Source: Morinoia aosen (taxonomy: Eukaryota > Arthropoda > Malacostraca > Amphipoda > Talitridae). From it: a DNA stretch of 64,000 nt. Position 1 is the stretch's first letter, and the number at the start of each line of letters is the position of its first letter. The stretch is taken from NCBI GenBank assembly GCA_030386875.1, contig CM059580.1, positions 2,880,838-2,944,837 on the forward strand. The letters are read 5' to 3'. A program made the position numbers and the translations under genes. This document shows positions 1-61,500 of this stretch, piece by piece. The notes beneath the pieces were generated by a model, which was given only the letters and a program-made list of their open reading frames with translations, did not search any database and was not told the origin of the DNA.

Positions 1-827
1 CCTAACTAACAATGATTGCTCTAGCAATCTCTTGTGACAATCAGCAACCATCACCAACAATCACAGGAGAAAAAAGCAATCCCCAATATGAGTATTCCCA
101 ATGCGGCAGATATGCCACCAACAATCCCAGCTACAATTTCACCTCTGCCAAGCATTAATGACAACAATCCCACCGCTGCCACCAACAATCCCAGCTACAA
201 TTTCACCTCTGCCAAGCATTAATGACAACAATCCCACCGCTGCCACCAACAATCCCAGCCACAATTTCACCTCTGCCAAGCATTAATGACAACAATCCCA
301 CCGCTGCCACCAACAATCCCAGCTACAATTTCACCTCTGCCAAGCATTAATGACAACAATCCCACCGCTGCCACCAACAATCCCAGCTACAATTTCACCT
401 CTGCCAAGCATTAATGACAACAATCCCACCGCTGCCACCAACAATCCCAGCCACAATTTCACCTCTGCCAAGCATTAATGACAACAATCCCACCGCTGCC
501 ACCAACAATCCCAGCTACAATTTCACCTCTGCCAAGCATTAATGACAACAATCCCACCGCTGCCACCAACAATCCCAGCTACAATTTCACCTCTGCCAAG
601 CATTAATGACAACAATCCCACCGCTGCCACCAACAATCCCAGCTACAATTTCACCTCTGCCAAGCATTAATGACAACAATCCCACCGCTGCCACCAACAA
701 TCTCAGCCACAATTTCACCTCTGCCAAGCATTAATGACAACAATCCCACCGCTGCCACCAACAATCCCAGCCACAATTTCACCTCTGCCAAGCATTAATG
801 ACAACAATCCCTCCAACAATCCTGCAG
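1..827. repeat. Intronic 64-bp minisatellite upstream of the PDZ exon
   Basis: About ten full 64-bp units plus partial ends lie between about 112 and 812; each contains the start TAATGACAACAATCCC and ends CTCTGCCAAGCAT. Starts recur at 158, 222, 286 and so on to 798. Units differ by only a few C/T changes. The last unit is cut and runs into the acceptor at 825-827. Bases 1-111 are ordinary intron. Because 64 is not a multiple of three, short shadow ORFs appear in several frames. Confidence 0.95.
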
Positions 828-1177: not shown

Positions 1178-4100
1178 GTGAGCTGCGCTGTGTGTGCGTT
1201 GTGTAAATTGTGTTGGCTGTGTTGTGGAGACCATGTGTTTAATGTATTGGGTGTGTGTGTTTAGTGAGCATTGCGTGTACGTCTAGCGTGCTCTCTGTGT
1301 GTGCGTTTGTTTAGTGAACATTGCGTGTACTTGTAGCATGCTCTGTGTGTTGTGTGTAAATGGTTGTATCTAGCGTATGTGTGGTGTGAAATGTGATCTA
1401 TGTGTTCTTTGAGAATAGGACCTAGCTTTAATATGACGTGTGTGTGAATAGTACCTAGCTTGTATATGATATGTGTACATATGTACGACATGTGTATGTG
1501 TGATATGTGTACATATGTACGACATGTGTATGTATGATATGTGTACATATGTACGACATGTGTATGTATGATATGTGTACATATGTACGACATGTGTATG
1601 TATGATATGTGTACATACTCGTATGTACGACATGTGTACATATGTACGACATGTGTATGTATGATATGTGTACATATGTACGACATGTGTATGTATGATA
1701 TGTGTACATATGTACGATATGTGTACATATATACGACACACCTGACCTACATCACACCTCCAGGAGCGACAGAAGTGTGTCCCCACCCCAGTCCGTCTCC
1801 TCGTCAGGCTACGGCACCGGCAGCTCCACTCACGCCTCACACCCCGACACTCAACCCCAACCCCACCTACAGCGTCAGCCCCATCACAGCCAACTCCACC
1901 AACAAACTTCGTACTTGCATCAAAACCAACACCCGTGGCAACAACAACCACAACAACAATCACAACAGCAGCATCAACAACAACAACAACAACAACCTCA
2001 GCAGCAACAACAACTCCAGCAGCAGAAGCAGCAGCAGCAGCATCAACCACAGCAGCAACAACAACAGTATAATCAACAACAGTATCATCACTATAGCCGG
2101 AAGCAGTACCAGCAACAACAGCAGCATGTGCAGCTATCGTCTACATCTACCTCGAGCAGCTCCCGGCCGTGTTCTGCTGTAGAAGTAGACGTAGATTGCG
2201 CTGCTGAAGTGAGTATATCTCTTTTAAGGAGAGCGTCCCGCCATAAGTGGTGAAATTTGTAGAAATATATATAGATTTTGGCTGCTTTAAGAAATGTAAA
2301 AGGTCAGGTACATCCTATGAAAAATGAGGTTCGTACGTTCGCTCGTTCGCCCGCTACGGGGGTTTGAAATATGGGGGGGGGGGGGGAATATGTCCTTTGG
2401 TGACGTCATGAAAAGAAGTCAAATTTTAAATATGAAGTGGACCTAATGTATTGATAAATTCTCAAAGATGAAATGTAAAGAAATCAGGGATACCCAATAG
2501 CCAAATGAAAAAGTATTTTTAAAATAAACAGGAGAAACAAGTGCCAACTGAGCTCTATTAAGATACCAGAGCTCTAAACCAGGTTCAGTAAGCATAGGTT
2601 AGGTACATGCAACCGGTTTTAATCGGTGTTCATGTTCCAGAATCAGTTGACAACCGGTTACGACAACCACGGTGGCGACATGAGCCACCACAACCACCTA
2701 TACAACAAAACCACCATGTCCTCAACCGCAACCTTAGCCAGCAACCAATCAGGGTCCTCGACTCGTTCTGCACAGACCAATGAGAGCGCAGAAGAGCACG
2801 ACGTTGCCAAACTTCAGTCAGGCCACGGTGGTGCTTATGGGCAGGGTTCTGACCATATTCTGGGTAAGTCCAGGGAGCCCATTTATGGGACAAGTCAACC
2901 TATTTATGACGCAAACCAGACAATTTATAGCTCAAACCAACCCATTAATAGCACAAACCAGCCCATTAATAGCTCGAGCCAACCTATTTATGGTACAAAC
3001 CAGCCTATTTATAGTGGAAGCCAACCCATTTATGACACAAATCAGCCCATTTACGGCACAAGTAAATCTAACAACGATGCAAATCAACCTCATTGCAACA
3101 GCAATCAGCCAATTTATGGCACAAATCAGTCCGTTTACGGCACTAACCAACTCATTTACGATTCAAACCAGTCCCTTTACGACACAAACCAGTCCCTTTA
3201 CGACACAAACCAGTCCATTTACGACACAAACCAGTCCATTTACGACACAAATCAGCCCATTTACGACACAAATCAGCCCATTTACGACACAAATCAGCCC
3301 ATTTATGACACAAATCAGCCCATTTACGACACAAATCAGCCCATTTACGACACAAATCAGCCCATTTACGACACAACCTCTGCAGCAGTGGGCAAGAGGA
3401 AGACGTCTGCTCCTCAGCACCAAGGGCCTCCCCCCCTCCCCCCGCCTCTTCCTACCCGGCAGCTGCAGGTGGGTGTAGCTGCGGTCCTGAAAAGGTCATT
3501 CATGGAATTTATTGTTCTACATTATTAGCCTAAATTTAGCTCTCTTTGGCACTAATTTAGCTATCTTTGGCACTAATTTAGCTGTCTTTGGCACTAATTT
3601 AGCTATCTTTGGCCTAAATTTAGCTCTCTTTGGCACTAATTTAGCTATCTTTGGTACTAATTTAGCTATCTTTGGCACTAATTTAGCTATCTTTGGCACT
3701 AATTTAGCTATCTTTGGCACTAATTTAGCTATCTTTGGCACTAATTTAGCTATCTTTGGCACTAATTTAGCTATCTTTGGCACTAATTTAGCTATCTTTG
3801 GCACTAACTTAGCTATCTTTGGCACCAATTTAGCTATCTTTGGCACTAATTTAGCTATCTTTGGCACTAATTTAGCTATCTTTGGCACTAATTTAGCTCT
3901 CTTTGGCACTAATTTAGCTCTCTTTGGCACTAATTTAGCTCTCTTTGGCACTAATTTATCTATCTTTGGCACTAATTTAGCTATCTTTGGCACTAAATTA
4001 GCCATCTTTGGCACTAATTTAGCCATCTTTGGCACTAATTTAGCTATCTTTGGCACTAATTTAGCTATCTTTGGCACTAATTTAGCTATCTTTGGCACTC

Positions 4101-7100
4101 ATTTATCTATCTTTGGCACTCATTTAGCTATCTTTGGCACTAATTTAGCTATCTTTGGCACTCATTTAGCTATCTTTGGCACTCATTTAGCTATCTTTGG
4201 CACTAATTTAGCTCTCTTTGGCACTAATTTAGCTCTCTTTGGCACTAATTTAGCTCTCTTTGGCACTAATTTAGCTCTCTTTGGCACTAATTTAGCTATC
4301 TTTGGCACTAATTTAGCTATCTTTGGCACTAATTTAGCTATCTTTGGCACTAATTTAGCTATCTTTGGCACTAATTTAGCTATCTTTGGCACTAATTCAG
4401 CTATCTTTGGCACTAATTTAGCTACCTTTGGCACTAATTCAGCTATCTTTGGCACTAATTTAGCTCTCTTTGGCATAAGTTTAGCTCTCTTTTGCAAAAT
4501 TAATTGAATTATCATTTAATGTAGGTAATGTACATTACAGGGACGACACGACGCACCAGGCACCCAGTCCCCGAGCAGGTCGGTCACATCCGGCTCTTCG
4601 TCCCCATCCCAACACGCCCCCAGTGCTTCAGAGGACCCCACCGAGCACATCAGGTTCCACCTCACGCTAGGGATGTGGGAGCAATACAACAAGTCTCAGT
4701 CTGCCCCTGGGTCCCCTGGTCCCAAGGTGCCGTCCTCCAACCCCATCAAACACAACCCCAACCCATCGAAGTCCTCCAACCTTCCCAAGCCCACTAATTC
4801 CCCCAACCACAACACCAACCTCCGCAACTCCTCCAACAACCACCACACCATCCCCCTCAACCACCCTAGCCCCAACAAGCAAAACACCAACCCCAACATC
4901 CACCTCACCAACCTCTCAAAACCCAACACGAGTCTGCGACCTAAGCCGTCTTTCTCTCATGGTGGTCACGGCAGAGGTGACTCTGACTACCGAGGGGCCT
5001 CTGCAGGGGACTACGAGGTGCCCCTCAGTAAAGAGGGGCACAGTGGGGGGCAGAGATTCTCCCCAGAGGGGTCCCACAATTTAAACGCATCTCAAAGTCA
5101 GGTTTATTCCAAGCCTGCATCTTTGCAGGGTCAGCCGTTTTCCAGTTCTGCTCATAGTCGCTTGCATTCTGTGTATAAACAGGCTCATTCTTCCGAAAAT
5201 CAAGCGTATTCTTTGCAAAACCAGTCATATTCTTTGCAAAACCAGTCATATTCTTCACAAAACCAGTCTTATTCTTCACAAAGCCAGTCTTATTCTTTGC
5301 AAAATCAGTCTTATTCTTCACAAAGCCAGTCTTATTCTTCACAAAACCAATCGAATTTTTCACAAAACCAGTCACATTCTGCTCACAATCAATCTCATTC
5401 TCAAACCCAGTCACACGTATCCAAAAACAATTCTCAGAGTATTCAAACTCCGCATCAATCGTTGCACAATCAAAGTCAATCTTTCTTGAATATACCTCAA
5501 CCTTCATCATCAAATCCGGCCAAATCGTCACAGAACCAGCCCCAGCCAGCACTAAAACAACCTCAATTTGCACAAAATCAGCCACTATCTGCATCAAGTA
5601 ACCCCATATCTGCTTCAAATCACCCTCAATCTTCACCTAAACAGCCTCAATTTGCACTTAAACAGCCCCAGTCTGCGCCAAATCAACCTCAATCTGCACC
5701 CAATCAGCCCCAGTTGTCACGCAACCCGTCTCAAATAGTACCAACCCACAAACACAATCCTGACATGAAAACAAATCGAGTGGTGGAACACCCAAAACGT
5801 CGCGATACAAAGCGCCCTAACGCTGCTGGGGGCGTCCACAGCAGAGGCACTGTACAGCAGGACCTTATCAGCCTCCTGAGTCACGACTCCTGCGATGTGG
5901 ACGACTCGAGCTCCACAGGGTCGTCCTCAGACGTGTCGCACAGAACACGTCCTGCTATCACGGCCGCCAAGCCGGTACTGAAGGACTCCATGCGGGTTGT
6001 CAACCACAAGACGGCTGCCAGGCCTCCCGGTAATTTGGGGCAGTATTCTAATCAGACCAACGTCGGGATTTCTGCTGCGCATGCCCTCCGAAGTTGTTCT
6101 GACGTAGCGACTGACGATCATTCCAAGAACCCCGAGGTGCCTTCATCAAGCAATCATTCTCACTACGCTGAAACTGTGAGAGAAGTGCAACGTGCAGAGC
6201 ACAATTCAATGCACTTTGACAGAAGAAAAGACAATAAACAATCGTTAGAAGAGCAAAGACGAGACAACTTCAAAGAGATCATCAAAGACACAGAAACTCC
6301 TCGTGTTGGGCAATACCTGCCTCCCGGGAATCCCGACCTTGGGTCCCAGGTGGGTAAAATTTCCGTGTACACACACAACGCGTCCCAGTCTCTAGACGGG
6401 TTCAGTCCGAGCCCCAGAGCTCGGGAAGACCCTGCTTCTATGCCCTGCATGGATGCAAAGGCCAAGTCATTTGATGAGGTCACCCCCAACCTGGTGCAGT
6501 CGATGGTGCACAAATACAGCGGGGACTCTACACTAAGGAAATCCAACCTAAAGAAGCAAAAGCAGATAGACCAGGGTGATATGGGTCACGACATGGATGC
6601 GCCTCCGAGTATCAACCACCACCATGACACCCAAAAACCTCAGGTCGACCAAACCCCAGCAGTGCAAAGCACTGAACCTCAAGGGGTTGAGAATGCTGAG
6701 GCTCTAGAAGGGTACACTGGGGTACCAAAGGAAACACAACCCATGTCCTACTGGGACCAAAGGATCCGTGGTACCAGCGCCAGATACACGTCCGACAGGC
6801 TCCCGCTTGATGTGACCCAAACCTCAGTGGCCAGGGACATCCCCATACAACTGCAGGACGATGAAGAGGACAGACACGGATTTGAGGATGGACAAACCAC
6901 CCCCACGGCCATTTTGGACCGACTCAAAGGGGGCCTGCAGAAGGCTGTGCTCTCCCGGAAATTTGACTGTGATGCCGGCAAAGGCCCCTTCACTGGGGCC
7001 AATAATACTGGCATTACATCCAAGCGGGACTTGCAGGTCGAGGAAGAGTGGAGCACTCTCGTTCATGCTGGTTAGTAGTGTGCTGTGCTCTTGGGGAGTA

Positions 7101-10100
7101 TGTCATGTTAGTCACAGGTGTGTCATGCTGGTTAGTAGTATGTTGTGTTGGCTGTAGGTATGTCATGATGGTCATAGGTGTGTCGTGCTGGCTTAGGTGT
7201 GTCGTGCTGGCTGTAGGTGTGTCGTGCTGGCTTAGGTGTGTTGTGCTGGCTGTAGGTGTGTCGTGCTGGCTGTAGGTGTGTCGTGCTGGCTGTAGGTGTG
7301 TCGTTCTGGCTGTAGGTGTGTCGTGCGGGCTGTAAGTGTGTCGTGCTGGCTGTAGGTGAGTCGTGCTGGCTGTAGGTGTGTCGTGCTGGCTGTAGGTGTG
7401 TCATGCTGGCTGTAGGTGTGTCATGCTGGCTGTAGGTGTGTCGTGCTGGCTGTAGGTGTGTCGTGCTGGCTGTAGGTGTGTCGTGCTGGCTGTAGGTGTG
7501 TCGTGCTGGCTGTAGGTGTGTCGTGCTGGCTGTAGGTGTGTCGTGCGTGTTGGTATAACATTGTTATAACAATAATTGCAATAGTAATAAATTGAATATT
7601 CGTACTAAAGTAATGGATATAGCAATGAGTTAAGTATTGTTATAACTGTACCTATGACAGTACTGAGTCAAGTTCTGTTGTATACCAGCGTCTCACGCGA
7701 TCCACTGCACCAGCGAGGCTGTTACGTCGCTGAGCCGCGCCCCCGCGCCCCCCTACCGGCCCCTCCCCTGCACGCCCCCCTCACTCAGCGGTACAGGTAA
7801 CCTTCGTATGTTTGTGTGTTCTTGTTTAGTTGTGTTGTGCTCACTCTTGTTTGCTTGTGTTGTGCTCATACCTGTTTACGTGCTCTTGTTTGAATACTTG
7901 TGTTATGGTTGTAGATGCCGTTTAACCGGGCGGGTAAATTCAATCTACGGAAAATGTACTCCTGCACAAATCTAGATCGTCGTCATGCACTACTATTTTC
8001 TGATTTTATCTTCTTATATGGTATCGAATATAGCTATATTTGTGGAGGAAGCTGCATCTCCACAACATCCATGATGCTTGAGTGTGCCTTTGGTCCTTGG
8101 TCGTCTCGAAGTTCTAACACGCATAAAGGACAGAGTTGCTCTTGTTTTATATGCTTTTCGGCTGCGTTGGTAAAACCAGGAATATAATAATAATAATTTG
8201 TATGCTTTTCAAGTGTACTCATTGCTGCTTTATTCTTAATCACGGTCCTTAAGAAAGTTATGTCCTGTGCGAGTGAAAAGAATAAGCGGGCTCTTCAATG
8301 AATAGAAGTACAACAGGAAATGATAAAAATTGACAGGATTGCCGAGCATTAAGGTAGAGCTACCGGACCGGAAACATTTTAGCAAACCCATCTAACTCAG
8401 CCATCCGTAATCACGCTTTTGAATGCGACACAGCAGTCAATAAAAATGGTTTCAAAGTCATAGCCGGGGCAAAGTTGTGTTTGGAATTGCGGATTTAAGA
8501 GTCCCTGTTCATTTTTAAAACGAAACCTGTTTTAAATAATCATCTTAGCTCATTTCCTTTATCCCTAGTCAATAAGTAATGTCATGCATTTTTTTGAGTT
8601 GTTATCTTTTTTGTATTTCACAGATGACTTTTTGTTCGAATTTGTATTGCTGATGATGAGCGAAGGCTCGAAACGTCCATTTTTTACGAGTCTTCTACAG
8701 TCTCGAGAATACATTGTAATGAAAAAGGTTTCATACCATTTTCTGATTCTCGCTTTTCTATTGAAAATTAGGAAATGACCATTAATACAAAAGGGGCATG
8801 CGGTTGCAGGGTAATATTTTATACAAAATTGGGATACTTTTATTATTCTTTTTACATGTAAAATGCAACTCTACTTACGATAAATTCAGGTTACGGAACT
8901 GTAATAAATTAATTTTGTAAGGTGAGGTATAACTGTATAACAACTTCAAAACTCTCTTTCCAGAACCCTCCCACCCCCTAGAGGAGCTGTCCTCGGATCC
9001 CCCCATCTACGAGAGGATAGACACGGGGGTCCCTGACCCCCACCACCTCCAGGACGGGGGACTCACCCCCGTCCTCCGTGAAGGGGGCTCTGCTGACCCC
9101 CCTGAGGGGGACGTGGAGAGGCAGACGTGAGTGTCGAATTTTTTGTGTAGAATTTTGCTAGAGATTGTGTTGGTGTAGAGTTGTTTGGTGGAGGCGGTGG
9201 TGGTGGTGTTGGTGTTGTAGCAAGAGAACAAGCAGCTGGTGAGCTTGCTTCCTTCAGCAATTACATGTGCTTCATACTAAATGGTGCCTTCATCCTTCCT
9301 TTATTTGAACATCTTTGTTGTAGTAAGGGAGGCTAATACAAACTTTTGCACTAACACTTCCATTTGGCTATAATGGTGGCAGCTGGTTGAGATAGTCATG
9401 TTGCAGGTTGAAGGTTGCATGTTGCGGCAGCTGGTTGAGATAGTCGTGTTGCAGGTTGAAGGCTGCATGTTGCGGCAGCTGGTTGAGAGTGTCGTGTTGC
9501 AGGTTGAAGGCTGCATGTTGCGGCAGCTGGTTGAGAGTGTCGTGTTGCAGGTTGAAGGCTGCATGTTGCGGCAGCTGGTTGAGATAGTCGTGTTGCAGGT
9601 TGAAGGTTGCATGTTGCGGCAGCTGGTTGAGAGTGTCGTGTTGCAGGTTGAAGGCTGCATGTTGCGGCAGCTGGTTGAGATAGTCATGTTGCACGTTGAA
9701 GGCTGCATGTTGCGGCAGCTGGTTGAGATAGTCGTGTTGCAGGTTGAAGGTTGCATGTTACGGCAGCTGGTTGAGATAGTCGTGTTGCAGGTTGAAGGTT
9801 GCATGTTACGGCAGCTGGTTGAGATAGTCGTGTTGCAGGTTGAAGGTTGCATGTTGCGGCAGCTGGTTGAGATAGTCGTGTTGCAGGTTGAAGGCTGCAT
9901 GTTGCGGCAGCTGGTTGAGATAGTCGTGTTGCAGGTTGAAGGTTGCATGTTACGGCAGCTGGTTGAGATAGTCGTGTTGCAGGTTGAAGGTTGCATGTTG
10001 CGGCAGCTGGTTGAGATAGTCATGTTGCAGGTTGAAGGCTGCATGTTGCGGCAGCTGGTTGAGATAGTCGTGTTGCAGGTTGAAGGTTGCATGTTACGGC

Positions 10101-10937
10101 AGCTGGTTGAGATAGTCGTGTTGCAGGTTGAAGGTTGCATGTTACGGCAGCTGGTTGAGATAGTCATGTTGCAGGTTGAAGGCTGCATGTTGCGGCAGCT
10201 GGTTGAGATAGTCATGTTGCAGGTTGAAGGCTGCATGTTGCGGCAGCTGGTTGAGATAGTCGTGTTGCAGGTTGAAGGTTGCATGTTACGGCAGCTGGTT
10301 GAGATAGTCATGTTGCAGGTTGAAGGCTGCATGTTGCGGCAGCTGGTTGAGATAGTCGTGTTGCAGGTTGAAGGTTGCATGTTACGGCAGCTGGTTGAGA
10401 TAGTCATGTTGCACGTTGAAGGCTGCATGTTGCGGCAGCTGGTTGAGATAGTCGTGTTGCAGGTTGAAGGTTGCATGTTGCGGCAGCTGGTTGAGAGTGT
10501 CATGTTGCAGGTTGAAGGTTGCATGTTGCGGCAGCTGGTTGAGATAGTCGTGTTGCAGGTTGAAGGTTGCATGTTGCGGCAGCTGGTTGAGAGTGTCGTG
10601 TTGCAGGTTGAAGGTTGCATGTTGCGGCAGCTGGTTGAGATAGTCATGTTGCAGGTTGAAGGTTGCATGTTGCGGCAGCTGGTTGAGATAGTCATGTTGC
10701 AGGTTGAAGGTTGCATGTTGCGGCAGCTGGTTGAGAGTGTCGTGTTGCAGGTTGCAGAGCCGCATCGCCCAGCTAGAGCAGCAGCTGGCCAGCGAGAGGA
10801 GCAGGGGTGACCAGCTGGGGGCGCAGGTGGCAGAGCTACGGGCCCTCAACACCCGCCTTCAGGAGGACAAAAGGGCGGCAGCACGACAGCTCCACCACTT
10901 CACCGACTGGTTCTTTGCCACCATCGACAGGTCCTGA
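828..10937 (+). CDS. SIPA1L: SIPA1-like (SPAR family) Rap GTPase-activating protein, C-terminal seven exons (gene-level entry)
   Basis: Joined exons 828-1177, 1764-2208, 2641-3468, 4541-7070, 7689-7796, 8964-9126 and 10751-10937 give 4,611 bases, 1,536 codons plus TGA. Every junction has GT/AG and matching phase (2,0,0,1,1,2). The first exon gives the second half of a PDZ domain (LALATL, ETMVDLLQTS, VVVPPH, SPRKGC), as in SIPA1L proteins. The last exon gives the family's C-terminal coiled coil ending in FTDWFFATIDRS. Family members turn off Rap GTPases and act at junctions and synapses in animals; that role is inferred by homology. The RapGAP domain and earlier exons lie upstream of the window. 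The C-terminal region, about 1,500 residues after PDZ, is roughly twice the vertebrate length as I remember it, because of poly-Gln, NQPIYDT and QSYSSQN expansions. Alternative: another PDZ RapGAP of the same family. The family call is strong; the exact paralog is not decided. Confidence 0.87.
1466..1738. repeat. 34-bp minisatellite in a SIPA1L intron
   Basis: Roughly eight units of ACATATGTACGACATGTGTA plus TGTATGATATGTGT. Each unit contains the 12-base palindrome GTACATATGTAC. A diverged TG-rich lead-in occupies 1185-1465. The array ends 25 bases before the acceptor at 1763. Both strands are open because the unit lacks stops in several frames. Confidence 0.92.
1764..2208 (+). CDS. SIPA1L: SIPA1L exon b: Ser-rich then poly-Gln linker
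   Basis: The acceptor cacacctccag precedes G AGC GAC AGA and the donor is GCTGAA|GTGAGT. The exon encodes SVSPPQSVSSSGYGTGSS and then about 80 residues that are mostly Gln with His, Asn and Tyr, encoded by CAA/CAG mixtures. The stretch is low complexity and probably disordered. The other two frames of the CAA/CAG tract are also open (Asn/Ser- and Thr-rich shadows), but only this frame joins in phase to both neighbours. Confidence 0.82.
2209..2640. other. SIPA1L intron without an array
   Basis: Short 432-bp intron. It holds a G run of about 14 at 2372-2387 and otherwise unique AT-rich sequence. No gene or repeat array is seen. Confidence 0.7.
2641..3468 (+). CDS. SIPA1L: SIPA1L exon c: heptad NQPIYDT repeat exon
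   Basis: The acceptor catgttccag precedes AAT CAG TTG and the donor is CTGCAG|GTGGGT; both ends are phase 0. It has a Ser/Asn-rich start and then about 24 tandem heptads, diverged at the start (QPIYGTS, QPINSTN) and near identical at the end (NQPIYDT). It finishes with PPPLPPPLPTRQLQ, a proline-rich SH3-type stretch. Each heptad carries a Tyr preceded by Ile and usually followed by Asp, so tyrosine phosphorylation is possible but not shown. The 21-bp repeat is in frame. Confidence 0.83.
3525..4495. repeat. 21-bp minisatellite filling a SIPA1L intron
   Basis: About 46 units of TTTGGCACTAATTTAGCTAT plus C, with scattered variants (CTC for ATC, CAT for AAT). It fills nearly all of intron 3469-4540. 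It is open on both strands only because 21 is a multiple of three. Exon c just upstream also carries a 21-bp period. Confidence 0.96.
4541..7070 (+). CDS. SIPA1L: SIPA1L exon d: long Ser/Gln/Asn-rich exon
   Basis: The acceptor gtacattacag precedes GGA CGA CAC (phase 0); the donor CATGCTG|GTTAGT is phase 1. The exon encodes 843 codons. Near the start is HIRFHLTLGMWEQYNKSQSAP. At about 5200-5400 lie ten or so heptads of the QSYSSQN type, followed by an NQPQ-rich stretch. From about 5750 the sequence becomes ordinary, with charged and Ser-rich segments (for example DLISLLSHDSCDVDDSSSTG). It ends EEEWSTLV, comparable with the DWTxLV patch before the coiled coil in vertebrate SIPA1L proteins. Confidence 0.88.
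7075..7550. repeat. 20-bp minisatellite starting at a splice donor
   Basis: About 22 units of TGTCGTGCTGGCTGTAGGTG, with 18-19 base variants lacking the GT of TGTAGG. The first diverged units overlap the exon d donor at 7070. It is followed by AT-rich unique intron to 7688. Confidence 0.93.
7689..7796 (+). CDS. SIPA1L: SIPA1L exon e: short Pro-rich exon
   Basis: The acceptor gttgtataccag precedes CG TCT CAC; the donor is GTACAG|GTAACC; both ends are phase 1. It encodes about 36 residues, ASHAIHCTSEAVTSL and then APAPPYRPLPCTPPSLSGT. It is too short to stand out as an open frame. It is supported by splice signals, GC-rich composition in an AT-rich setting, and phase match to both neighbours. 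Confidence 0.78.
7797..8963. other. SIPA1L intron of 1.17 kb
   Basis: Mostly unique AT-rich sequence. TTG-rich start (7800-7905), poly-A/T patches, and a hammerhead-like motif at 8650-8674 described separately. No array and no convincing exon. The open frames at 7915-8187 and 8584-8778 show no family features and lie inside the intron. Confidence 0.6.
8640..8702 (+). ncRNA. Hammerhead-ribozyme-like motif (degenerate, tentative)
   Basis: CTGATGA at 8650-8656 is followed by T, a perfect 4-bp stem (GAGC, loop GAAG, GCTC) and GAAAC at 8670-8674, matching the order of a hammerhead core. A possible outer stem is TGTA (8642-8646 area) with TACA near 8695-8698. Stem III is poor and one extra T sits before stem II. 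Such motifs are known in Penelope-like retroelements. Treat as a relic at best. Confidence 0.25.
8964..9126 (+). CDS. SIPA1L: SIPA1L exon f: acidic linker before the coiled coil
   Basis: The acceptor actctctttccag has a good pyrimidine tract; the donor GGCAGAC|GTGAGT is strong. It enters at phase 1 and leaves at phase 2. The product is acidic and Pro-rich: HPLEELSSDPPIYERIDTG, then a DPHHLQDGG stretch, ending DVERQT. Confidence 0.82.
9262..9345 (+). repeat. Dispersed repeat family A, 3' fragment
   Basis: TACTAAATGGTGCCTTCATC and the following CCTTCCTTTATTTGAACATC match 13290-13345, 17147-17215 and 19958-20030 in order. It lies in a SIPA1L intron immediately before the 48-bp array. Confidence 0.75.
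9375..10750. repeat. 48-bp minisatellite ending at the terminal-exon acceptor
   Basis: About 28 units of GGCAGCTGGTTGAGATAGTC, GTGTTGCAGGTTGAAGGTTG, CATGTTGC. Each unit contains a tgttgcag|gttg string, the same as the true acceptor at 10750. Point variants (GATAGTC/GAGTGTC, GTT/GCT, GTTGC/GTTAC) mix along the array. The open frames of about 470 codons on both strands are artefacts of the 48-bp period. Confidence 0.96.
10751..10937 (+). CDS. SIPA1L: SIPA1L terminal exon: C-terminal coiled coil and stop
   Basis: The acceptor is gtgttgcag before G TTG CAG AGC, completing the split codon AC|G. It encodes SRIAQLEQQLASERS, AQVAELRALNTRLQEDKRA and FTDWFFATIDRS, then TGA. Heptad Leu spacing shows a coiled coil, and the WFF..ID end is the family's conserved C-terminus. 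The acceptor lies in the last unit of the 48-bp array, so the splice site is repeat sequence. Confidence 0.88.
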
Positions 10938-11278
10938 TCTCTAGCAGTGAGTCCTGGCGTCCTGCGGCAAGTCCTGGCGTCCTGCGAAAAGTCCTGGGGC
11001 TAGTCTTGGTGTCCTGGTACAAGTCCTGGGGCTAGTCTTGGCGTCCTGGTACAAGTCCTGCCGCAAGTCCTGGCGTCCTGCAACTAGTCCTGGGGCTAGT
11101 CTTGGCGTCCTGGTACAAGTCCTGAGGCTAGTCTTGGCGTCCTGGTACAAGTCCTGCCGCAAGTCCTGGCGTCCTGCAACAAGTCCTGGGGCTAGTCTTG
11201 GCGTCCTGGTACAAGTCCTGGGGCTAGTCTTGGCGTCCTGGTACAAGTCCTGGCGTCCTGCAACAAGTCCTGGATGAT
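10938..11278. repeat. Tandem repeat in the SIPA1L 3' UTR
   Basis: Units built from AAGTCCTGGCGTCCTGCAAC and AAGTCCTGGGGCTAGTCTTG, GCGTCCTGGTAC, mixed irregularly. It starts within a dozen bases of the TGA and is presumably transcribed as 3' UTR. No AATAAA is evident shortly after it. Confidence 0.9.
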
Positions 11279-40650: not shown

Positions 40651-40768
40651 ATTTCTGCAATCCTGTTTCTCAGGACCTATAACTTGTTTCGTCAACTTTC
40701 ATCTTCTACATAAACTTTCTCATTAACTTGCTGTTAGTGTGCGCGGTGTGTGGGCACCTCAAGTGCCA
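40645..40768 (+). repeat. Family A middle fragment next to the 21-bp array
   Basis: ACTTGTTTCGTCAACTTTCA, TCTTCTACATAAACTTTCTC, ATTAACTTGCTGTTAGTGTG, then GTGTGTGGGCACC, parallel to the family A segment that seeds the 47-bp array. The 21-bp array begins directly after it. Confidence 0.6.
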
Positions 40769-43700
40769 AATCTAATGTGGTGAAGGTCAAATCTAATGTG
40801 GTGAAGGCCAAATCTAATGTGGTGAAGGCCAAATCTAATGTGGTGAAGGCCAAATCTAATGTGGTGAAGGTCAAATCTAATGTGGTGAAGGTCAAATCTA
40901 ATGTGGTGAAGGTCAAATCTAATGTGGTGAAGGTCAAATCTAATGTGGTGAAGGTCAAATCTAATGTGGTGAAGGCCAAATCTAATGTGGTGAAGGCCAA
41001 ATCTAATGTGGTGAAGGTCAAATCTAATGTGGTGAAGGTCAAATCTAATGTGGTGAAGGCCAAATCTAATGTGGTGAAGGCCAAATCTAATGTGGTGAAG
41101 GCCAAATCTAATGTGGTGAAGGCCAAATCTAATGTGGTGAAGGCCAAATATAATGTGGTGAAGGCCAAATCTACTGTGGTGAAGGCCAAATCTAATGCGG
41201 TGAAGGTCAAATCTAATGCGATGAAGGCCAAATCTAATGCGGTGAAGGCCAAATCTAATGCGATGAAGGCCAAATCTAATGCGGTGAAGGCCAAATCTAA
41301 TGTGGTGAAGGTCAAATCTAATGTGGTGAAGGCCAAATCTAATGTGGTGAAGGTCAAATCTAATGTGGTGAAGGTCAAATCTAATGTGGTGAAGGCCAAA
41401 TCTAATGTGGTGAAGGTCAAATCTAATGTGGTGAAGGTCAAATCTAATGTGGTGAAGGCCAAATCTAATGTGGTGAAGGTCAAATCTAATGTGGTGAAGG
41501 TCAAATCTAATGTGGTGAAGGCCAAATCTAATGTGGTGAAGGCCAAATCTAATGTGGTGAAGGTCAAATCTAATGTGGTGAAGGCCAAATCTAATGTGGT
41601 GAAGGTCAAATCTAATGTGGTGAAGGCCAAATCTAATGTGGTGAAGGCCAAATCTAATGTGGTGAAGGTCAAATCTAATGTGGTGAAGGCCAAATCTAAT
41701 GTGGTGAAGGCCAAATCTAATGTGGTGAAGGCCAAATCTAATGTGGTGAAGGCCAAATCTAATGTGGTGAAGGTCAAATCTAATGTGGTGAAGGCCAAAT
41801 CTAATGTGGTGAAGGCCAAATCTAATGTGGTGAAGGTCAAATCTAATGTGGTGAAGGCCAAATCTAATGTGGTGAAGGCCAAATCTAATGTGGTGAAGGC
41901 CAAATCTAATGTGGTGAAGGCCAAATCTAATGTGGTGAAGGTCAAATCTAATGTGGTGAAGGCCAAATCTAATGTGGTGAAGGCCAAATCTAATGTGGTG
42001 AAGGTCAAATCTAATGTGGTGAAGGCCAAATCTAATGTGGTGAAGGCCAAATCTAATGTGGTGAAGGCCAAATCTAATGTGGTGAAGGTCAAATCTAATG
42101 TGGTGAAGGTCAAATCTAATGTGGTGAAGGTCAAATCTAATGTGGTGAAGGTCAAATCTAATGTGGTGAAGGTCAAATCTAATGTGGTGAAGGTCAAATC
42201 TAATGTGGTGAAGGCCAAATCTAATGTGGTGAAGGCCAAATCTAATGTGGTGAAGGTCAAATCTAATGTGGTGAAGGCCAAATCTAATGTGGTGAAGGCC
42301 AAATCTAATGTGGTGAAGGCCAAATCTAATGTGGTGAAGGCCAAATCTAATGTGGTGAAGGCCAAATCTAATGTGGTGAAGGCCAAATCTACTGTGGTGA
42401 AGGCCAAATCTAATGCGGTGAAGGTCAAATCTAATGCGATGAAGGCCAAATCTAATGCGGTGAAGGCCAAATCTAATGCGATGAAGGCCAAATCTAATGC
42501 GGTGAAGGCCAAATCTAATGTGGTGAAGGCCAAATCTAATGTGGTGAAGGCCAAATCTAATGTGGTGAAGGCCAAATCTAATGCGGTGAAGGCCAAATCT
42601 AATGCGGTGAAGGCCAAATCTAATGCGGTGAAGGCCAAATCTAATGCGGTGAAGGCCAAATCTAATGCGGTGAAGGCCAAATCTGATGCGGTGAAGGCCA
42701 AATCTACTGTGGTGAAGGCCAGATCTACTGTGGTGAAGGCCAGATCTACTGTGGTGAAGGCCAGATCTACTGTGGTGAAGGCCAGATCTACTGTGGTGAA
42801 GGCCAGATCTACTGTGGTGAAGGCCAAATATACTGTGGTGAAGGCCAAATATACTGTGGCGAAGGCCAAATATACTGTGGCGAAGGCCAAATCTACTGTG
42901 GTGAAGGCCAAATCTACTGTGGTGAAGGCCAAATCTACTGTGGTGAAGGCCAAATCTACTGTGGTGAAGGCCAAATCTACTGTGGTGAAGGCCAAATCTA
43001 CTGTGGTGAAGGCCAAATCTACTGTGGTGAAGGCCAAATCTACTGTGGTGAAGGCCAAATCTACTGTGGTGAAGGCCAAATCTACTGTGGTGAAGGCCAA
43101 ATCTACTGTGGTGAAGGCCAAATCTACTGTGGTGAAGGCCAAATCTACTGTGGTGAAGGCCAAATCTACTGTGGTGAAGGCCAAATCTACTGTGGTGAAG
43201 GCCAAATCTACTGTGGTGAAGGCCAAATCTACTGTGGTGAAGGTCAAATCAACTGTGGTGAAGGTCAAATCTACTGTGGTGAAGGCCAAATCTACTGTGG
43301 TGAAGGCCAAATCTACTGTGGTGAAGGCCAAATCTACTGTGGTGAAGGCCAAATCTACTGTGGTGAAGGCCAAATCTACTGTGGTGAAGGCCAAATCTAC
43401 TGTGGTGAAGGCCAAATCTACTGTGGTGAAGGCCAAATCTACTGTGGTGAAGGCCAAATCTACTGTGGTGAAGGCCAAATCTACTGTGGTGAAGGCCAAA
43501 TCTACTGTGGTGAAGGCCAAATCTACTGTGGTGAAGGCCAAATCTACTGTGGTGAAGGTCAAATCTACTGTGGTGAAGGCCAAATCTACTGTGGTGAAGG
43601 CCAAATCTACTGTGGTGAAGGCCAAATCTACTATGGTGAAGGTCAAATCTACTGTGGTGAAGGCCAAATCTACTGTGGTGAAGGCCAAATCTACTGTGGT

Positions 43701-44075
43701 GAAGGCCAAATCTAATGTGGTGGAGGCCAAATCTACTGTGGTGAAGGCCAAATCTACTATGGTGAAGGTCAAATCTACTGTGGTGAAGGCCAAATCTACT
43801 GTGGTGAAGGCCAAATCTACTGTGGTGAAGGCCAAATCTAATGTGGTGAAGGCCAAATCTACTGTGGTGAAGGCCAAATCTACTATGGTGAAGGTCAAAT
43901 CTACTGTGGTGAAGGCCAAATCTACTATGGTGAAGGTCAAATCTACTGTGGTGAAGGCCAAATCTACTGTGGTGAAGGCCAAATCTACTGTGGTGAAGGC
44001 CAAATCTAATGTGGTGGAGGCCAAACTTGATGTGATGAAGGCCACATTTGCCCTCATAAAGGCCAATGTTTTTAA
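40769..44075. repeat. 21-bp minisatellite with higher-order repeat
   Basis: About 156 units of AAATCTAATGTGGTGAAGGC C. Zones: AATGTG (to about 42380), AATGCG (42400-42680), AGATCTACTG (42720-42810), AAATCTACTG (from 42830). A marker block (ACTGTG, GCGGTG, GCGATG) occurs at 41167 and 42385, exactly 58 units apart. Open on both strands for over 1,100 codons only because the period is a multiple of three. Confidence 0.97.
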
Positions 44076-52334: not shown

Positions 52335-55300
52335 GATATCCCGTTGAGGGAATGATATATCGTTGTGTGGATGATATGCCGTTGTGTGGATGATATGCCG
52401 TTGTGTGGATGATATGCGGTTGTGTGGATGATATGCCGTTGTGTGGATGATATGCCGTTGTGTGGATATGCCGTTGTGTGGATGATATGCCGTTGTGTGG
52501 ATGATATGACGTTGTGTGGATGATATATCGTTGTGTGAATGATATACCGTTGTGTGGATGATATGCCGTTGTGTGGATGATATGCCGTTGTGTGGATGAT
52601 ATGCCGTTGTGTGGATGATATGCCGTTGTGTGGATGATATGACGTTGTGTGGATGATATGACGTTGTGTGAATGATATATCGTTGTGTGAATGATATGAC
52701 GTTGTGTGGATGATATGCCGTTGTGTGGATGATATGCCGTTGTGTGGATGATATACCGTTGTGTGGATGATATGCCGTTGTGTGGATGATATGCCGTTGT
52801 GTGGATGATATACCGTTGTGTGGATGATATGCCGTTGTGTGGATGATATGCCGTTGTGTGGATGATATGACGTTGTGTGGATGATATGCCGTTGTGTGGA
52901 TGATATGCCGTTGTGTGGATGATATGCCGTTGTGTGGATATGCCGTTGTGTGGATGATATGACGTTGTGTGGATGATATGCCGTTGTGTGGATGATATGC
53001 CGTTGTGTGGATGATATACCGTTGTGTGGATGATATGCCGTTGTGTGGATGATATGCCGTTGTGTGGATGATATACCGTTGTGTGGATGATATGCCGTTG
53101 TGTGGATGATATGCCGTTGTGTGGATGATATACCGTTGTGTGGATGATATGCCGTTGTGTGGATGATATGCCGTTGTGTGGATGATATGACGTTGTGTGG
53201 ATGATATGCCGTTGTGTGGACGATATGCCGTTGTGTGGATGATATGCCGTTGTGTGGATATGCCGTTGTGTGGATGATATGACGTTGTGTGGATGATATG
53301 CCGTTGTGTGGATGATATGCCGTTGTGTGGATATGCCGTTGTGTGGGTGATATGCCGTTGCGGGAATGATATATCGTTGTGTGAATGATATATCGTTGTG
53401 TGAATGATATATCGTTGTGTGAATGATATATCGTTGTGTGAATGATATATCGTTGTGTGGATGATATATCGTTGTGTGGATGATATATCGTTGTGTGAAT
53501 GATATATCGTTGTGTGAATGATATATCGTTGTGTGGATGATATATCGTTGTGTGGATGATATATCGTTGTGTGAATGATATATCGTTGTGTGGATGATAT
53601 ATCGTTGTGTGAATGATATATCGTTGTGTGAATGATATATCGTTGTGTGAATGATATATCGTTGTGTGAATGATATATCGTTGTGTGAATGATATATCGT
53701 TGTGTGAATGATATATCGTTGTGTGAATGATATATCGTTGTGTGAATGATATATCGTTGTGTGGATGATATATCGTTGTGTGAATGATATATCGTTGTGT
53801 GGATGATATATCGTTGTGTGGATGATATATCGTTGTGTGGATGATATATCGTTGTGTGGATGATATATCGTTGTGTGAATGATATATCGTTGTGTGAATG
53901 ATATATCGTTGTGTGAATGATATATCGTTGTGTGAATGATATATCGTTGTGTGAATGATATATCGTTGTGTGGATGATATATCGTTGTGTGAATGATATA
54001 TCGTTGTGTGGATGATATATCGTTGTGTGGATGATATATCGTTGTGTGAATGATATATCGTTGTGTGAATGATATATCGTTGTGTGAATGATATATCGTT
54101 GTGTGAATGATATATCGTTGTGTGAATGATATATCGTTGTGTGAATGATATATCGTTGTGTGAATGATATACCGTTGTGTGAATGATATGCCGTTGTGTG
54201 GATGATATGCCGTTGTGTGGATGATATGCCGTTGTGTGGATGATATGACGTTGTGTGAATGATATATCGTTGTGTGAATGATATATCGTTGTGTGAATGA
54301 TATACCGTTGTGTGAATGATATACCGTTGTGTGAATGATATGCCGTTGTGTGGATGATATACCGTTGTGTGGATGATATACCGTTGTGTGAATGATATGC
54401 CGTTGTGTGGATGATATGCCGTTGTGTGGATGATATGCCGTTGCGGGAATGATATGCCGTTGCGGGAATGATATATCGTTGTGTGAATGATATATCGTTG
54501 TGTGGATGATATGCCGTTGTGTGGATGATATGCCGTTGTGTGGATGATATGCCGTTGTGTGGATGATATATCGTTGTGTGAATGATATATCGTTGTGTGG
54601 ATGATATACCGTTGTGTGGATGATATGCCGTTGTGTGGATGATATGCCGTTGTGTGGATGATATGCCGTTGCGGGAATGATATGCCGTTGCGGGAATGAT
54701 ATACCGTTGTGTGGATGATATACCGTTGTGTGGATGATATGCCGTTGTGTGGATGATATATCGTTGTGTGAATGATATATCGTTGTGTGGATGATATACC
54801 GTTGTGTGAATGATATGCCGTTGTGTGGATGATATACCGTTGTGTGGATGATATATCGTTGTGTGGATGATATATCGTTGTGTGGATGATATACCGTTGT
54901 GTGAATGATATATCGTTGTGTGGATGATATACCGTTGTGTGAATGATATGCCGTTGTGTGGATGATATACCGTTGTGTGGATGATATGCCGTTGTGTGGA
55001 TGATATGCCGTTGTGTGGATGATATGCCGTTGTGTGGATGATATATCGTTGTGTGGATGATATACCGTTGTGTGAATGATATGCCGTTGTGTGGATGATA
55101 TACCGTTGTGTGGATGATATGCCGTTGTGTGGATGATATGCCGTTGTGTGGATGATATATCGTTGTGTGAATGATATATCGTTGTGTGGATGATATACCG
55201 TTGTGTGAATGATATGCCGTTGTGTGGATGATATACCGTTGTGTGGATGATATATCGTTGTGTGGATGATATACCGTTGTGTGGATGATATATCGTTGTG

Positions 55301-58300
55301 TGAATGATATATCGTTGTGTGGATGATATACCGTTGTGTGAATGATATGCCGTTGTGTGGATGATATACCGTTGTGTGGATGATATACCGTTGTGTGAAT
55401 GATATGCCGTTGTGTGGATGATATACCGTTGTGTGGATGATATGCCGTTGTGTGGATGATATGACGTTGTGTGGATGATATGCCGTTGTGTGGATGATAT
55501 GCCGTTGTGTGGATGATATGCCGTTGCGGGAATGATATACCGTTGTGTGAATGATATGCCGTTGTGTGGATGATATGACGTTGTGTGGATGATATGCCGT
55601 TGTGTGGATGATATACCGTTGTGTGAATGATATACCGTTGTGTGGATGATATGCCGTTGTGTGGATGATATGACGTTGTGTGGATGATATGCCGTTGTGT
55701 GGATGATATGCCGTTGTGTGGATGATATGACGTTGTGTGGATGATATGCCGTTGTGTGGATGATATGCCGTTGTGTGGATGATATGCCGTTGTGTGGATG
55801 ATATGCCGTTGTGTGGATGATATGCCGTTGTGTGGATGATATGCCGTTGTGTGGATGATATGCCGTTGTGTGGATGATATGCCGTTGTGTGGATGATATG
55901 ACGTTGTGTGGATGATATGACGTTGTGTGGATGATATGCCGTTGTGTGGATGATATGACGTTGTGTGGATGATATGACGTTGTGTGGATGATATGCCGTT
56001 GTGTGGATGATATGCCGTTGTGTGGATGATATGACGTTGTGTGGATGATATGCCGTTGTGTGGATGATATGCCGTTGTGTGGATGATATACCGTTGTGTG
56101 AATGATATACCGTTGTGTGGATGATATGCCGTTGTGTGGATGATATGCCGTTGTGTGGATGATATGCCGTTGTGTGGATGATATGCCGTTGTGTGGATGA
56201 TATGCCGTTGTGTGGATGATATGCCGTTGTGTGGATGATATGCCGTTGTGTGGATGATATGCCGTTGTGTGGATGATATACCGTTGTGTGAATGATATAC
56301 CGTTGTGTGGATGATATGCCGTTGTGTGGATGATATGCCGTTGTGTGGATGATATGCCGTTGTGTGGATGATATGCCGTTGTGTGAATGATATGCCGTTG
56401 TGTGGATGATAGGCCGTTGTGTGGATGATATGCCGTTGTGTGGATGATATGACGTTGTGTGGATGATATGCCGTTGTGTGGATGATATGCCGTTGTGTGG
56501 ATGATATACCGTTGTGTGAATGATATACCGTTGTGTGGATGATATGCCGTTGTGTGGATGATATGCCGTTGTGTGGATGATATGCCGTTGTGTGGATGAT
56601 ATGCCGTTGTGTGGATGATATGCCGTTGTGTGAATGATATGCCGTTGTGTGGATGATAGGCCGTTGTGTGGATGATATGCCGTTGTGTGGATGATATGCC
56701 GTTGTGTGGATGATATGACGTTGTGTGGATGATATGCCGTTGTGTGAATGATATGCCGTTGTGTGAATGATATGCCGTTGTGTGGATGATATGCCGTTGT
56801 GTGGATGATATGCCGTTGTGTGGATGATATGACGTTGTGTGGATGATATGCCGTTGTGTGGATGATATGCCGTTGTGTGGATGATATGCCGTTGTGTGGA
56901 TGATATGACGTTGTGTGGATGATATGACGTTGTGTGGATGATATGACGTTGTGTGGATGATATGCCGTTGTGTGGATGATATGCCGTTGTGTGGATGATA
57001 TGCCGTTGTGTGGATGATATGCCGTTGTGTGGATGATATGACGTTGTGTGGATGATATGCCGTTGCGTGGATGATATGCCGTTGTGTGGATGATATGCCG
57101 TTGTGTGGATGATATGACGTTGTGTGGATGATATGACGTTGTGTGGATGATATACCGTAGTGTGAATGACGTACCGTTGTGTGGATGACGTACCGTTGTG
57201 TGGATGATATACCGTAGTGTGAATGACGTACCGTTGTGTGGATGATATACCGTTGTGTGAATGACGTACCGTTGTGTGGATGACGTACCGTTGTGTGGTT
57301 GATATACCGTAGTGTGAATGACATACCGTTGTGTGGATGACGTACCGTTGTGTGAATGACATACCGTTGTGTGGATGACGTACCGTTGTGTGGATGATAT
57401 ACCGTTGTGTGGATGATATACCGTTGTGTGGATGATATACCGTTGTGTGGATGATATACCGTTGTGTGAATGACGTAGCGTTGTGTGAATGACGTACCGT
57501 TGTGTGGATGATATACCGTAGTGTGAATGATATACCGTTGTGTGGATGATATACCGTTGTGTGGATGATATACCGTAGTGTGAATGACGTACCGTTGTGT
57601 GGATGATATACCGTTGTGTGGAGGATATACCGTAGTGTGGATGATATACCGTAGTGTGAATGATATACCGTTGTGTGGATGATATACCGTTGTGTGGATG
57701 ATATACCGTAGTGTGAATGATATGCCGTTGTGTGGATGATATACCGTAGTGTGGATGATATACCGTTGTGTGGATGATATACCGTAGTGTGAATGACGTA
57801 CCGTTGTGTGGATGATATACCGTTGTGTGGATGATATACCGTAGTGTGAATGATATACCGTTGTGTGGATGATATACCGTTGTGTGGATGATATACCGTA
57901 GTGTGAATGATATGCCGTTGTGTGGATGATATACCGTAGTGTGAATGATATACCGTTGTGTGGATGATATACCGTAGTGTGAATGACGTCCCGTTGTGTG
58001 GATGATATACCGTAGTGTGAATGATATGCCGTTGTGTGGATGATATACCGTAGTGTGAATGATATACCGTTGTGTGGATGATATACCGTTGTGTGAATGA
58101 TATACCGTTGTGTGAATGATATACCGTTGTGTGGATGATATACCGTTGTGTGGATGATATACCGTAGTGTGAATGATATGCCGTAGTGTGGATGATATAC
58201 CGTAGTGTGAATGATATACCGTTGTGTGGATGATATACCGTTGTGTGGATGATATACCGTAGTGTGAATGATATGCCGTAGTGTGGATGATATACCGTAG

Positions 58301-58335
58301 TGTGAATGATATACCGTTGTGTGGATGATTTCGTA
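52335..58335. repeat. 6-kb, 19-bp minisatellite with sequence zones
   Basis: About 315 units of CCGTTGTGTGGATGATATG and variants. Zones: 52335-53350 mostly CCG..GGATGATATG; 53360-54180 almost pure ATCGTTGTGTGAATGATAT; 54180-57150 mixed; 57150-58335 dominated by alternating ACCGTAGTGTGAATGA and ACCGTTGTGTGGATGATAT, a 38-bp dimer. In the minus direction the unit lacks stops and 19 mod 3 is 1, so three frames stay open for up to 2,034 codons. Non-coding. Confidence 0.97.
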
Positions 58336-58532: not shown

Positions 58533-61500
58533 CCCTCAGGGGGACGCAGCTATTGTATCTGTGGGAATTACCCCTCAGGGGGACGCAGCTATTGTATCTG
58601 TGGGAATTACCCCTCAGGGGGACGCAGCTATTGTATCTGTGGGAATTACCCCTCAGGGGGACGCAGCTATTGTATCTGTGGGAATTACCCCTCAGGGGGA
58701 CGCAGCTATTGTATGTGTGGGAATTACCCCTCAGGGGGACGCAGCTATTGTATCCATGGGAATTACCCCTCAGGGGGACGCAGCTATTGTATCCATGGGA
58801 ATTACCCCTCAGGGGGACGCAGCTATTGTATCTGTGGGAATTACCCCTCAGGGGGACGCAGCTATTGTATCTGTGGGAATTACCCCTCAGGGGGACACAG
58901 CTATTGTATCTGTGGGAATTACCCCTCAGGGGGACACAACTATTGTATCTGTGGGAATTACCCCTCAGGGGGACGCAGCTATTGTATCTGTGGGAATTAC
59001 CCCTCAGGGGGACACAGCTATTGTATCCATGGGAATTACCCCTCAGGGGGACACAACTATTGTATCTGTGGGAATTACCCCTCAGGGGGACACAGCTATT
59101 GTATCCATGGGAATTACCCCTCAGGGGGACACAACTATTGTATCAATGGGAATTACCCCTCAGGGGGACGCAGCTATTGTATCTGTGGGAATTACCCCTC
59201 AGGGGGACACAACTATTGTATCCATGGGAATTACCCCTCAGGGGGACGCAGCTATTGTATCCATGGGAATTACCCCTCAGGGGGACACAACTATTGTATC
59301 CATGGGAATTACCCCTCAGGGGGACGCAGCTATTGTATCTGTGGGAATTACCCCTCAGGGGGACACAGCTATTGTATCTGTGGGAATTACCCCTCAGGGG
59401 GACGCAGCTATTGTATCCATGGGAATTACCCCTCAGGGGGACACAGCTATTGTATCTGTGGGAATTACCCCTCAGGGGGACGCAGCTATTGTATCCATGG
59501 GAATTACCCCTCAGGGGGACACAGCTATTGTATCCATGGAAATTACCCCTCAGGGGGACGCAGCTATTGTATCTGTGGGAATTACCCCTCAGGGGGACAC
59601 AGCTATTGTATCTGTGGGAATTACCCCTCAGGGGGACGCAGCTATTGTATCTATGGGAATTACTCCTCAGGGGGACACAACTATTGTATCTATGGGAATT
59701 ACCCCTCAGGGGGATGCAGCTATTGTATCCATGGGAATTACCCCTCAGGGGGACGCAGCTATTGTATCCATGGGAATTACCCCTCAGGGGGACGCAGCTA
59801 TTGTATCCATGGGAATTACCCCTCAGGGGGACGCAGCAATTGTATCCATGGGAATTACCCCTCAGGGGGACACAACTATTGTATCTATGGGAATTACCCC
59901 TCAGGGGGACACAGCTATTGTATCTATGGGAATTACCCCTCAGGGGGACACAACTATTGTATCTATGGGAATTACCCCTCAGGGGGACGCAGCTATTGTA
60001 TCTATGGGAATTACCCCTCAGGGGGACGCAGCTATTGTATCCATGGGAATTACCCTCAGGGGGACGCAGCTATTGTATCCATGGGAATTACCCCTCAGGG
60101 GGACGCAGCAATTGTATCCATGGGAATTACCCCTCAGGGGGACACAACTATTGTATCTATGGGAATTACCCCTCAGGGGGACGCAGCTATTGTATCTATG
60201 GGAATTACCCCTCAGGGGGACGCAGCTATTGTATCCATGGGAATTACCCTCAGAGGGACGCAGCTATTGTATCCATGGGAATTACCCCTCAGGGGGACAC
60301 AGCTATTGTATCCATGGGAATTACCCCTCAGGGGGACGCAGCTATTGTATCTATGGGAATTACCCCTCAGGGGGACGCAGCAATTGTATCCATGGGAATT
60401 ACCCTTCAGGGGGACACAACTATTGTATCTATGGGAATTACCCCTCAGGGGGACGCAGCTATTGTATCTATGGGAATTACCCCTCAGGGGGACGCAGCTA
60501 TTGTATCTATGGGAATTACCCCTCAGGGGGACACAGCTATTGTATCTATGGGAATTACCCCTCAGGGGGACACAGCTATTGTATCTATGGGAAATACCCC
60601 TCAGGGGGACGCAGCTATTGTATCCATGGGAATTACCCCTCAGGGGGACACAGCTATTGTATCTATGGGAATTACCCCTCAGGGGGACACAGCTATTGTA
60701 TCCATGGGAATTACCCCTCAGGAGGACACAGCTATTGTATCTATGGGAATTACCCCTCAGGGGGACACAGCTATTGTATCCATTGGAATTACCCCTCAGG
60801 GGGACACAGCTATTGTATCTATGGGAATTACCCCTCAGGGGGACGCAGCTATTGTATCCATGGGAATTACCCCTCAGGGAGACACAGCTATTGTATCTAT
60901 GGGAATTACCCCTCAGGGGGACACAGCTATTGTATCCATGGGAATTACCCCTCAGGGGGACACAGCTATTGTATCCATGGGAATTACCCCTCAGGGGGAC
61001 ACAGCTATTGTATCTATGGGAATTACCCCTCAGGGGGACACAGCTATTGTATCCATGGGAATTACCCCTCAGGGAGACACAGCTATTGTATCTGTGGGAA
61101 TTACCCCTCAGGGGGACACAGCTATTGTATCCATGGGAATTACCCCTCAGGGGGACGCAGCAATTGTATCCATGGGAATTACCCCTCAGGGGGACACAAC
61201 TATTGTATCTATGGGAATTACCCCTCAGGGGGACACAGCTATTGTATCTATGGGAATTACCCCTCAGGGGGACACAACTATTGTATCTATGGGAATTACC
61301 CCTCAGGGGGACACAGCTATTGTATCTGTGGGAATTACCCCTCAGGGGGACGCAGCTATTGTATCTGTGGGAATTACCCCTCAGGGGGACGCAGCAATTG
61401 TATCCATGGGAATTACCCCTCAGGGGGACACAACTATTGTATCTATGGGAATTACTCCTCAGGGGGACACAGCTATTGTATCTATGGGAATTACCCCTCA

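Follow-up and report, generated by a model that had tools for sequence, protein, structure and literature searches.

The last intron of a gene on the 64,000-nucleotide stretch of Morinoia aosen DNA analysed here (the window) raises the question of how the acceptor of a terminal coding exon came to stand as the last of a long series of copies of itself, and which of these copies is likely to serve in splicing. The original prediction placed an array of 48-bp units at 9375..10770 and held that every unit carries the acceptor sequence tgttgcag followed by gttg. The observation is confirmed with small corrections: the array is real, but TRF run on the window sets its start at 9378 and its end at 10754 (forward strand, period 48, 28.7 copies, 95% matches, 0% indels). 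Aligned in register, it resolves into 28 full 48-bp units and a final unit of 33 bp, with no indels, and its final 4 bases are exonic. Six columns at five places vary among the full units, namely 16-17 (TA/GT), 21 (G/A), 29 (G/C), 38 (T/C) and 47 (G/A).

Within the window the 12-mer TGTTGCAGGTTG has 27 occurrences, all of them in the array and none on the opposite strand. The acceptor sequence was thus found in 27 of 29 units rather than in all of them; the two exceptions, at 9687..9698 and 10407..10418 (both on the forward strand), read TGTTGCACGTTG, with CAC for CAG and the AG lost. The last of the 27 identical copies, TGTTGCAG/GTTG at 10743..10754 on the forward strand (the slash marks the exon boundary), is the real acceptor of the terminal exon. 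That the functional site ends the array was predicted correctly; it had been set among about 28 near-copies, but an AG is present in 26 of the 28 upstream units. Unit 29 shares its GT variant with units 3, 4, 6, 24 and 26 and has no private change before the exon. We rejected a coding role for the array: a 478-aa open frame spans 9374-10807, as is often expected of a 16-codon unit, and its frame differs from that of the coiled coil encoded downstream.

The position of the array within the gene is well defined. A single open frame, closing at a stop codon at 10935-10937, results when exons 828-1177, 1764-2208, 2641-3468, 4541-7070, 7689-7796, 8964-9126 and 10751-10937 are joined, their phases being consistent, and this seven-exon join bears out the predicted donor at 9126, the acceptor at 10750 and their phase. 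The penultimate exon (8964..9126, forward strand) ends at the donor AGAC/GTGAGT at 9126/9127; the last intron (9127..10750, forward strand) is 1624 bp long and about 85% array; and the terminal coding exon (10751..10937, forward strand), which encodes a C-terminal coiled coil and the stop, has one match in the assembly. The window spans 2880838-2944837 of contig C25, and directly upstream of it on this contig lies a locus that we call L009. When exon 9482-9622 of L009 is joined to exon 828-1177, a PDZ domain (PF00595) is recovered at 33.6 bits, above the cut-off of 23.2, where the two halves separately give 23.1 bits and no match. The gene thus has the arrangement of a SIPA1L-type protein, with a PDZ domain upstream and a C-terminal coiled coil, the profile matches to the latter being weak, all below the cut-off, and several of them to coiled-coil families. 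Among relatives of the coil in the PDB, the best had an E value of 0.69, and a search of the assembly for Rap_GAP gave 13 matches, none on C25. An exon in L009 appears to resemble the segment that follows the Rap_GAP domain in SIPA1L-type RapGAP proteins, and the pieces of the gene are similar to SIPA1L proteins; the host is probably, though not provenly, a gene for a SIPA1L-type PDZ protein. Its coding exons also contain repeats of 21-bp period, at 2878-3376, 5207-5401 and 5537-5714 (NQPIYDT-like and QNQSYSS-like).

Where might the unit have come from? An origin elsewhere in the genome, which would speak against the original prediction, was looked for and not found: when two units were searched against the 1.99-Gb assembly (29 contigs), all 16 reported matches fell within this array, in a search that scored the best candidates only and skipped very common words, so that rare or diverged copies may escape it. 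The 12-mer itself occurs 157 times on the forward and 219 times on the reverse strand of the whole assembly, against 215 and 217 for the same word read backward; it is not rare genome-wide, and the finding therefore rests on the array and not on the word. No similarity to the unit was found in the left flank of the array, whose left end begins mid-unit. A search of viral contigs returned no relatives, and scans of the window for Rfam families (at gathering scores) and for tRNAs found none. Exon and unit have 4 bases in common (GTTG), a stretch that extends to 7 if one mismatch is allowed (GTTGCAG against GTTGAAG). Downstream of GTTG the two align with a score of 18, which was reached by 167 of 500 shuffles, and on this likeness at shuffle level we rejected the exon as origin of the whole unit. 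We likewise rejected the idea that the last intron was made by tandem duplication of this unit, the donor at 9126 being no copy of the unit and lying some 250 bp upstream of the array.

The same gene offers further cases in which a splice junction has been copied into a neighbouring array. When the 28-mer across each junction was compared with the adjacent intron (threshold score 24), 4 of the 10 donors had a near copy there, as did 1 of the 10 acceptors, or 5 of 20 junctions in all. In L009, a 62-bp array of 2.8 copies takes in the exon end TTGGCCAAAG/GTAACT, its units containing that exon end and the donor, and CTTCT/GTGAGTGGTG is repeated downstream of the exon ending at 5022. Copies also follow the exon end GACGCGCAG/GTGTGT, and in the best-matching one 37 exonic bases are retained with a single difference. 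These three cases, each an exon end carried with its donor into the array that follows, lie at L009:4281-4455, 5022-5370 and 5548-5900 on C25. Within the window, the exon end CATGCTG/GTTAGTAGT, with donor 7070 (7063..7142, forward strand), has a near copy at 7123-7142 that opens a 20-bp array. The unit of a 64-bp array at 113..811 (forward strand) aligns, with gaps, over the acceptor 827/828 of the PDZ-completing exon (score 34, 0 of 300 shuffles); this acceptor was left out of the junction count because it scored only 19 in the stricter 28-mer test (29 of 300 shuffles). The PDZ-exon donor at L009:9622 was also left out (score 18, 16 of 300 shuffles). Beyond the gene's stop codon, a 32/96-bp array at 10959-11253 begins after 22 bases; between its unit and the stop region there is a weak likeness, with a score that 20 of 300 shuffles reach.

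The other junctions of the gene bear on direction, since coding sequence within a unit means that the copying ran from exon to array. The original prediction had left open whether the terminal array grew out of the boundary or took the splice site over, and the same-gene junction arrays that include coding exon make growth from the boundary plausible. Together with the local distribution of the unit, they support local growth at the boundary as the probable origin of the terminal array. Growth from this acceptor boundary is nevertheless less certain than growth at the donors, because just 4 exonic bases are common to exon and unit.

How common such copying is was assessed in a held-out set of 32 kinase and myosin exons, taken from search lists without regard to repeats. 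Five of their 62 junctions were flagged, and at four loci (L072, L073, L074 and L080) reading bore out that the exon end, or the exon edge with the donor region, recurs in the intron. The reading by eye covered flagged junctions only; in L072 and L074 the script had chosen a different GT, and in L072 the donor has been lost in most copies. A flagged acceptor in L081 was rejected as probably not a true acceptor. Controls from exon interiors had a copy in 0 of 558 cases in the host gene and 1 of 638 elsewhere, and 28-mers from intron interiors had a nearby copy in 179 of 304 cases (59%) in the host gene and 82 of 564 elsewhere. Junction copies are therefore rarer than intron-interior copies and commoner than exon-interior ones. 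Arrays that fill introns sometimes overrun the edge, which the gene can bear since its outermost copy remains functional, and seeding specific to splice sites need not be invoked, junction copies being the rarer kind.

Pooling both sets, copies were found at 8 of 41 donors and 1 of 41 acceptors (p 0.03; the counts are small and were entered by hand after reading). Repeat density in the host gene is about equal at the two intron ends (35/60 and 32/60); in the held-out loci repeats are denser after exons (52/277) than before them (30/287), and we treat the excess of donor copies as no more than suggestive for this reason. Such an excess would be expected if decoy acceptors upstream of an exon were worse for the cell than decoy donors downstream of one.

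Junction arrays also appeared among 38 loci drawn from family searches, many of them large intronless-looking open frames, in which the coding match served as the reference for 39 arrays. At L049:621-1527 a kinase exon end, GATATTTGA/GTGAGT, is copied in an array of 38 bp x 23.8 (score 55, 0 of 37 controls). At L034:919-1467 (129 bp x 4.2) the end of a kinase coding sequence is copied together with its stop codon, as judged by reading, although its score against the coding match does not stand above the controls (8 of 37). Array units in L040:7-87 and L036:2202-2282 scored 28 and 26 against the kinase coding match and beat all 37 controls; the arrays lie 1414 and 87 bases from that match. Donor or stop-codon versions of the phenomenon thus exist at six further loci, L049, L034 (by reading), L072, L073, L074 and L080. 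Some kinase matches occur in pairs of equal score on the same contig, a few hundred kb or more apart (for example C1:37099001 and C1:37453673), and these pairs may be duplications or uncollapsed haplotypes. The right part of the window holds very long minisatellites, at 40765-44044 (21 bp x 156), 52335-58329 (19 bp x 316) and 58533-63998 (39 bp x 140).

The closest described counterparts are the amphioxus "mirages", minisatellite-like tandem duplications of an intron-exon boundary at its 3' or 5' side, reported for Adh3, the globins BflGb6 and BflGb9, TnC and PGBD5 (PMC3087553, PMC3902484). Mirage units are reported to measure from ten to about 160 bases, the splice signal is kept in many but not all copies, and unit counts are 3 and 6 for two BflGb6 haplotypes and 3 for PGBD5 (PMC3087553, PMC3902484). 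Mirages are further marked by boundary copies that escape homogenisation, by length differences between haplotypes and by undisturbed splicing; on the first of these, unit 29 of the present array has a GT variant found in other units too and no private change before the exon. The array shows several defining features of a mirage. It is a minisatellite-like tandem array; its units carry the boundary and cross the intron-exon junction (27 times TGTTGCAG/GTTG, the last at the exon, with 4 exonic bases only); the AG/GT signals are retained in 27 of 29 units; and its origin appears local, the 16 matches reported from the best candidates all lying within it. It differs in scale and setting, with 48 bp x 28.7 ahead of a terminal exon and only 4 exonic bases, against the 3 and 6 units given for BflGb6 and the 3 for PGBD5 (PMC3087553, PMC3902484). 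The 2.0-Gb assembly also exceeds the genome size usual in lancelets.

Two human arrays also adjoin a splice site, though on the donor side. Intron 7 of F7 contains an array of highly homologous 37-bp repeats that starts at a splice site, and splicing is reported normally to use the 5' site lying furthest upstream and no other (PMC6627357). The 25-bp VNTR in intron 18 of ABCA7 has as its first two bases the donor of exon 18, and one unit can be retained in RNA; array length goes with skipping of exon 19 (PMC5954066). The ABCA7 unit, as described, includes no exonic bases, and its effect on splicing was measured. There is a further parallel with intron gain by tandem duplication of AG/GT segments, which is discussed in PMC3087553: in both cases AGGT-bearing tandem copies stand at a junction, here CAG/GTTG. 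An open-access literature search, which cannot prove absence, found no acceptor array of this size.

If upstream copies were used, the outcome can be predicted in some detail. Every copy is entered in the same phase, 48 being a multiple of three. Read from donor 9126, 25 of the 26 upstream copies reach a TAG after 12, 28 or 44 residues; the exception is the penultimate copy (10695..10706, forward strand), whose acceptor at 10702 is in frame and would insert 16 residues, reading through the last unit, where AGAGTG replaces AGATAG. Across 181 AGs examined, 11 keep the frame to the stop, every one at 10702 or beyond. A stop codon in a terminal exon probably escapes the decay that depends on a downstream junction, and most decoy use is therefore predicted to yield a protein lacking the coil; such truncated products would end after TLKVACCGSWLR. 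By analogy with the lancelet copies, which are reported not to disturb splicing (PMC3087553, PMC3902484), the precedent suggests that the decoys are mostly unused.

The splice signals themselves were scored with acceptor and donor matrices and a branch motif, yTnAy, all of them approximations. On the acceptor matrix (-16 to +1) all 27 AG copies score equally, four AGs ahead of the array (9257, 9150, 9327 and 9323) outscore them, and the real site ranks 5 of 160. Of the seven acceptors of the gene to which this matrix was applied, 10750 has the lowest score; it has 8 pyrimidines in 17 positions, five of the other six being richer. The motif yTnAy is lacking within 100 nt of acceptor 10750, which is weak evidence because acceptor 7688 also lacks it; a scan found none inside the array, and the last such branch-site-like motif before it is CTAAC at 9351..9355 (forward strand). 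Recursive splicing through a ratchet site was rejected, CAG/GTTGAA scoring -2.83 on the approximate donor matrix against 2.38 to 5.54 for six real donors, as was a structure hiding the copies, two folded pieces (z 1.40 and 0.35) being no more stable than shuffles.

The reading that we favour, and consider likely on the sequence and its comparisons, is that the array is a mirage-type splice-junction minisatellite at a 3' boundary, grown from the end of the last intron, with the exon-proximal acceptor in use. Tandem duplication would have started from a short tract in which the terminal part of the last intron, with its AG, is followed by 4 exonic bases, and would have raised this tract to 28.7 copies through unequal exchange or slippage. 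Each step would have been silent, since acceptor and reading frame were both preserved in the copy adjoining the exon. Acceptor 10750 most likely still works, picked through recognition of the neighbouring terminal exon, and the 26 upstream AG copies would be intronic and mostly ignored. The strongest competitor, which we nonetheless regard as unlikely, is that the array arose first within the intron and spread, or was trimmed, to the exon, where one of its AGs replaced the ancestral acceptor. The sharing of only 4 exonic bases with the unit, the rest of the exon being unlike it, would fit such a takeover, as would the frequency with which arrays reach intron ends in a gene where 59% of intronic 28-mers (179 of 304) have a nearby copy; however, the join would have had to leave an AG at a frame-keeping position, and the other junction arrays of the gene do contain exon sequence.

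A regulatory role for the array is possible. It might act as a working splicing switch, in which upstream units are used in a fraction of transcripts to give SIPA1L-like proteins without the coil, the fraction being tuned by copy number. The 27-way tie on the approximate acceptor matrix would allow this, as would the predicted outcome of decoy use, in which translation ends 12, 28 or 44 residues on for 25 of the 26 and the other decoy gives the in-frame 16-residue insert, and the length of the human ABCA7 VNTR is reported to alter splicing (PMC5954066). We think it improbable all the same, as the AG has been lost in 2 of 28 upstream units, the two tested pieces have no unusual fold (z 1.40 and 0.35), and the lancelet copies are described as non-disturbing (PMC3087553, PMC3902484). 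Still a little less probable is the full form of this idea, a copy-number-dependent rheostat in which some transcripts enter upstream and end 12 to 44 codons on, a stable coil-less SIPA1L-like protein is made, and the balance between full-length and coil-less product is fixed by each individual's array length. Comparably slim is the chance that the array is exonic in most transcripts, with 9126 joined to 9257, or to 9382 (28 nt after CTAAC), and the coil exon a minority form or unread. The yTnAy motifs of the intron are confined to the sequence before the array, where the four higher-scoring AGs on the approximate matrix also lie; on the other side, the 11 of 181 frame-keeping AGs all stand at 10702 or later, the coil exon is intact and open, and 9382 falls outside the top 12 AGs by score on that matrix.

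Arrays that span a splice junction have been described in individual genes of lancelets and humans, and what is unusual here is the high acceptor copy number ahead of a terminal exon. With 5 of 20 junctions copied in one gene and six further loci elsewhere, this genome is suited to a proper census of the phenomenon, and 27 identical sites in one intron constitute a natural test of how the spliceosome chooses one AG. Should the rheostat exist after all, the ratio of full-length to coil-less protein would follow the array length of each individual.
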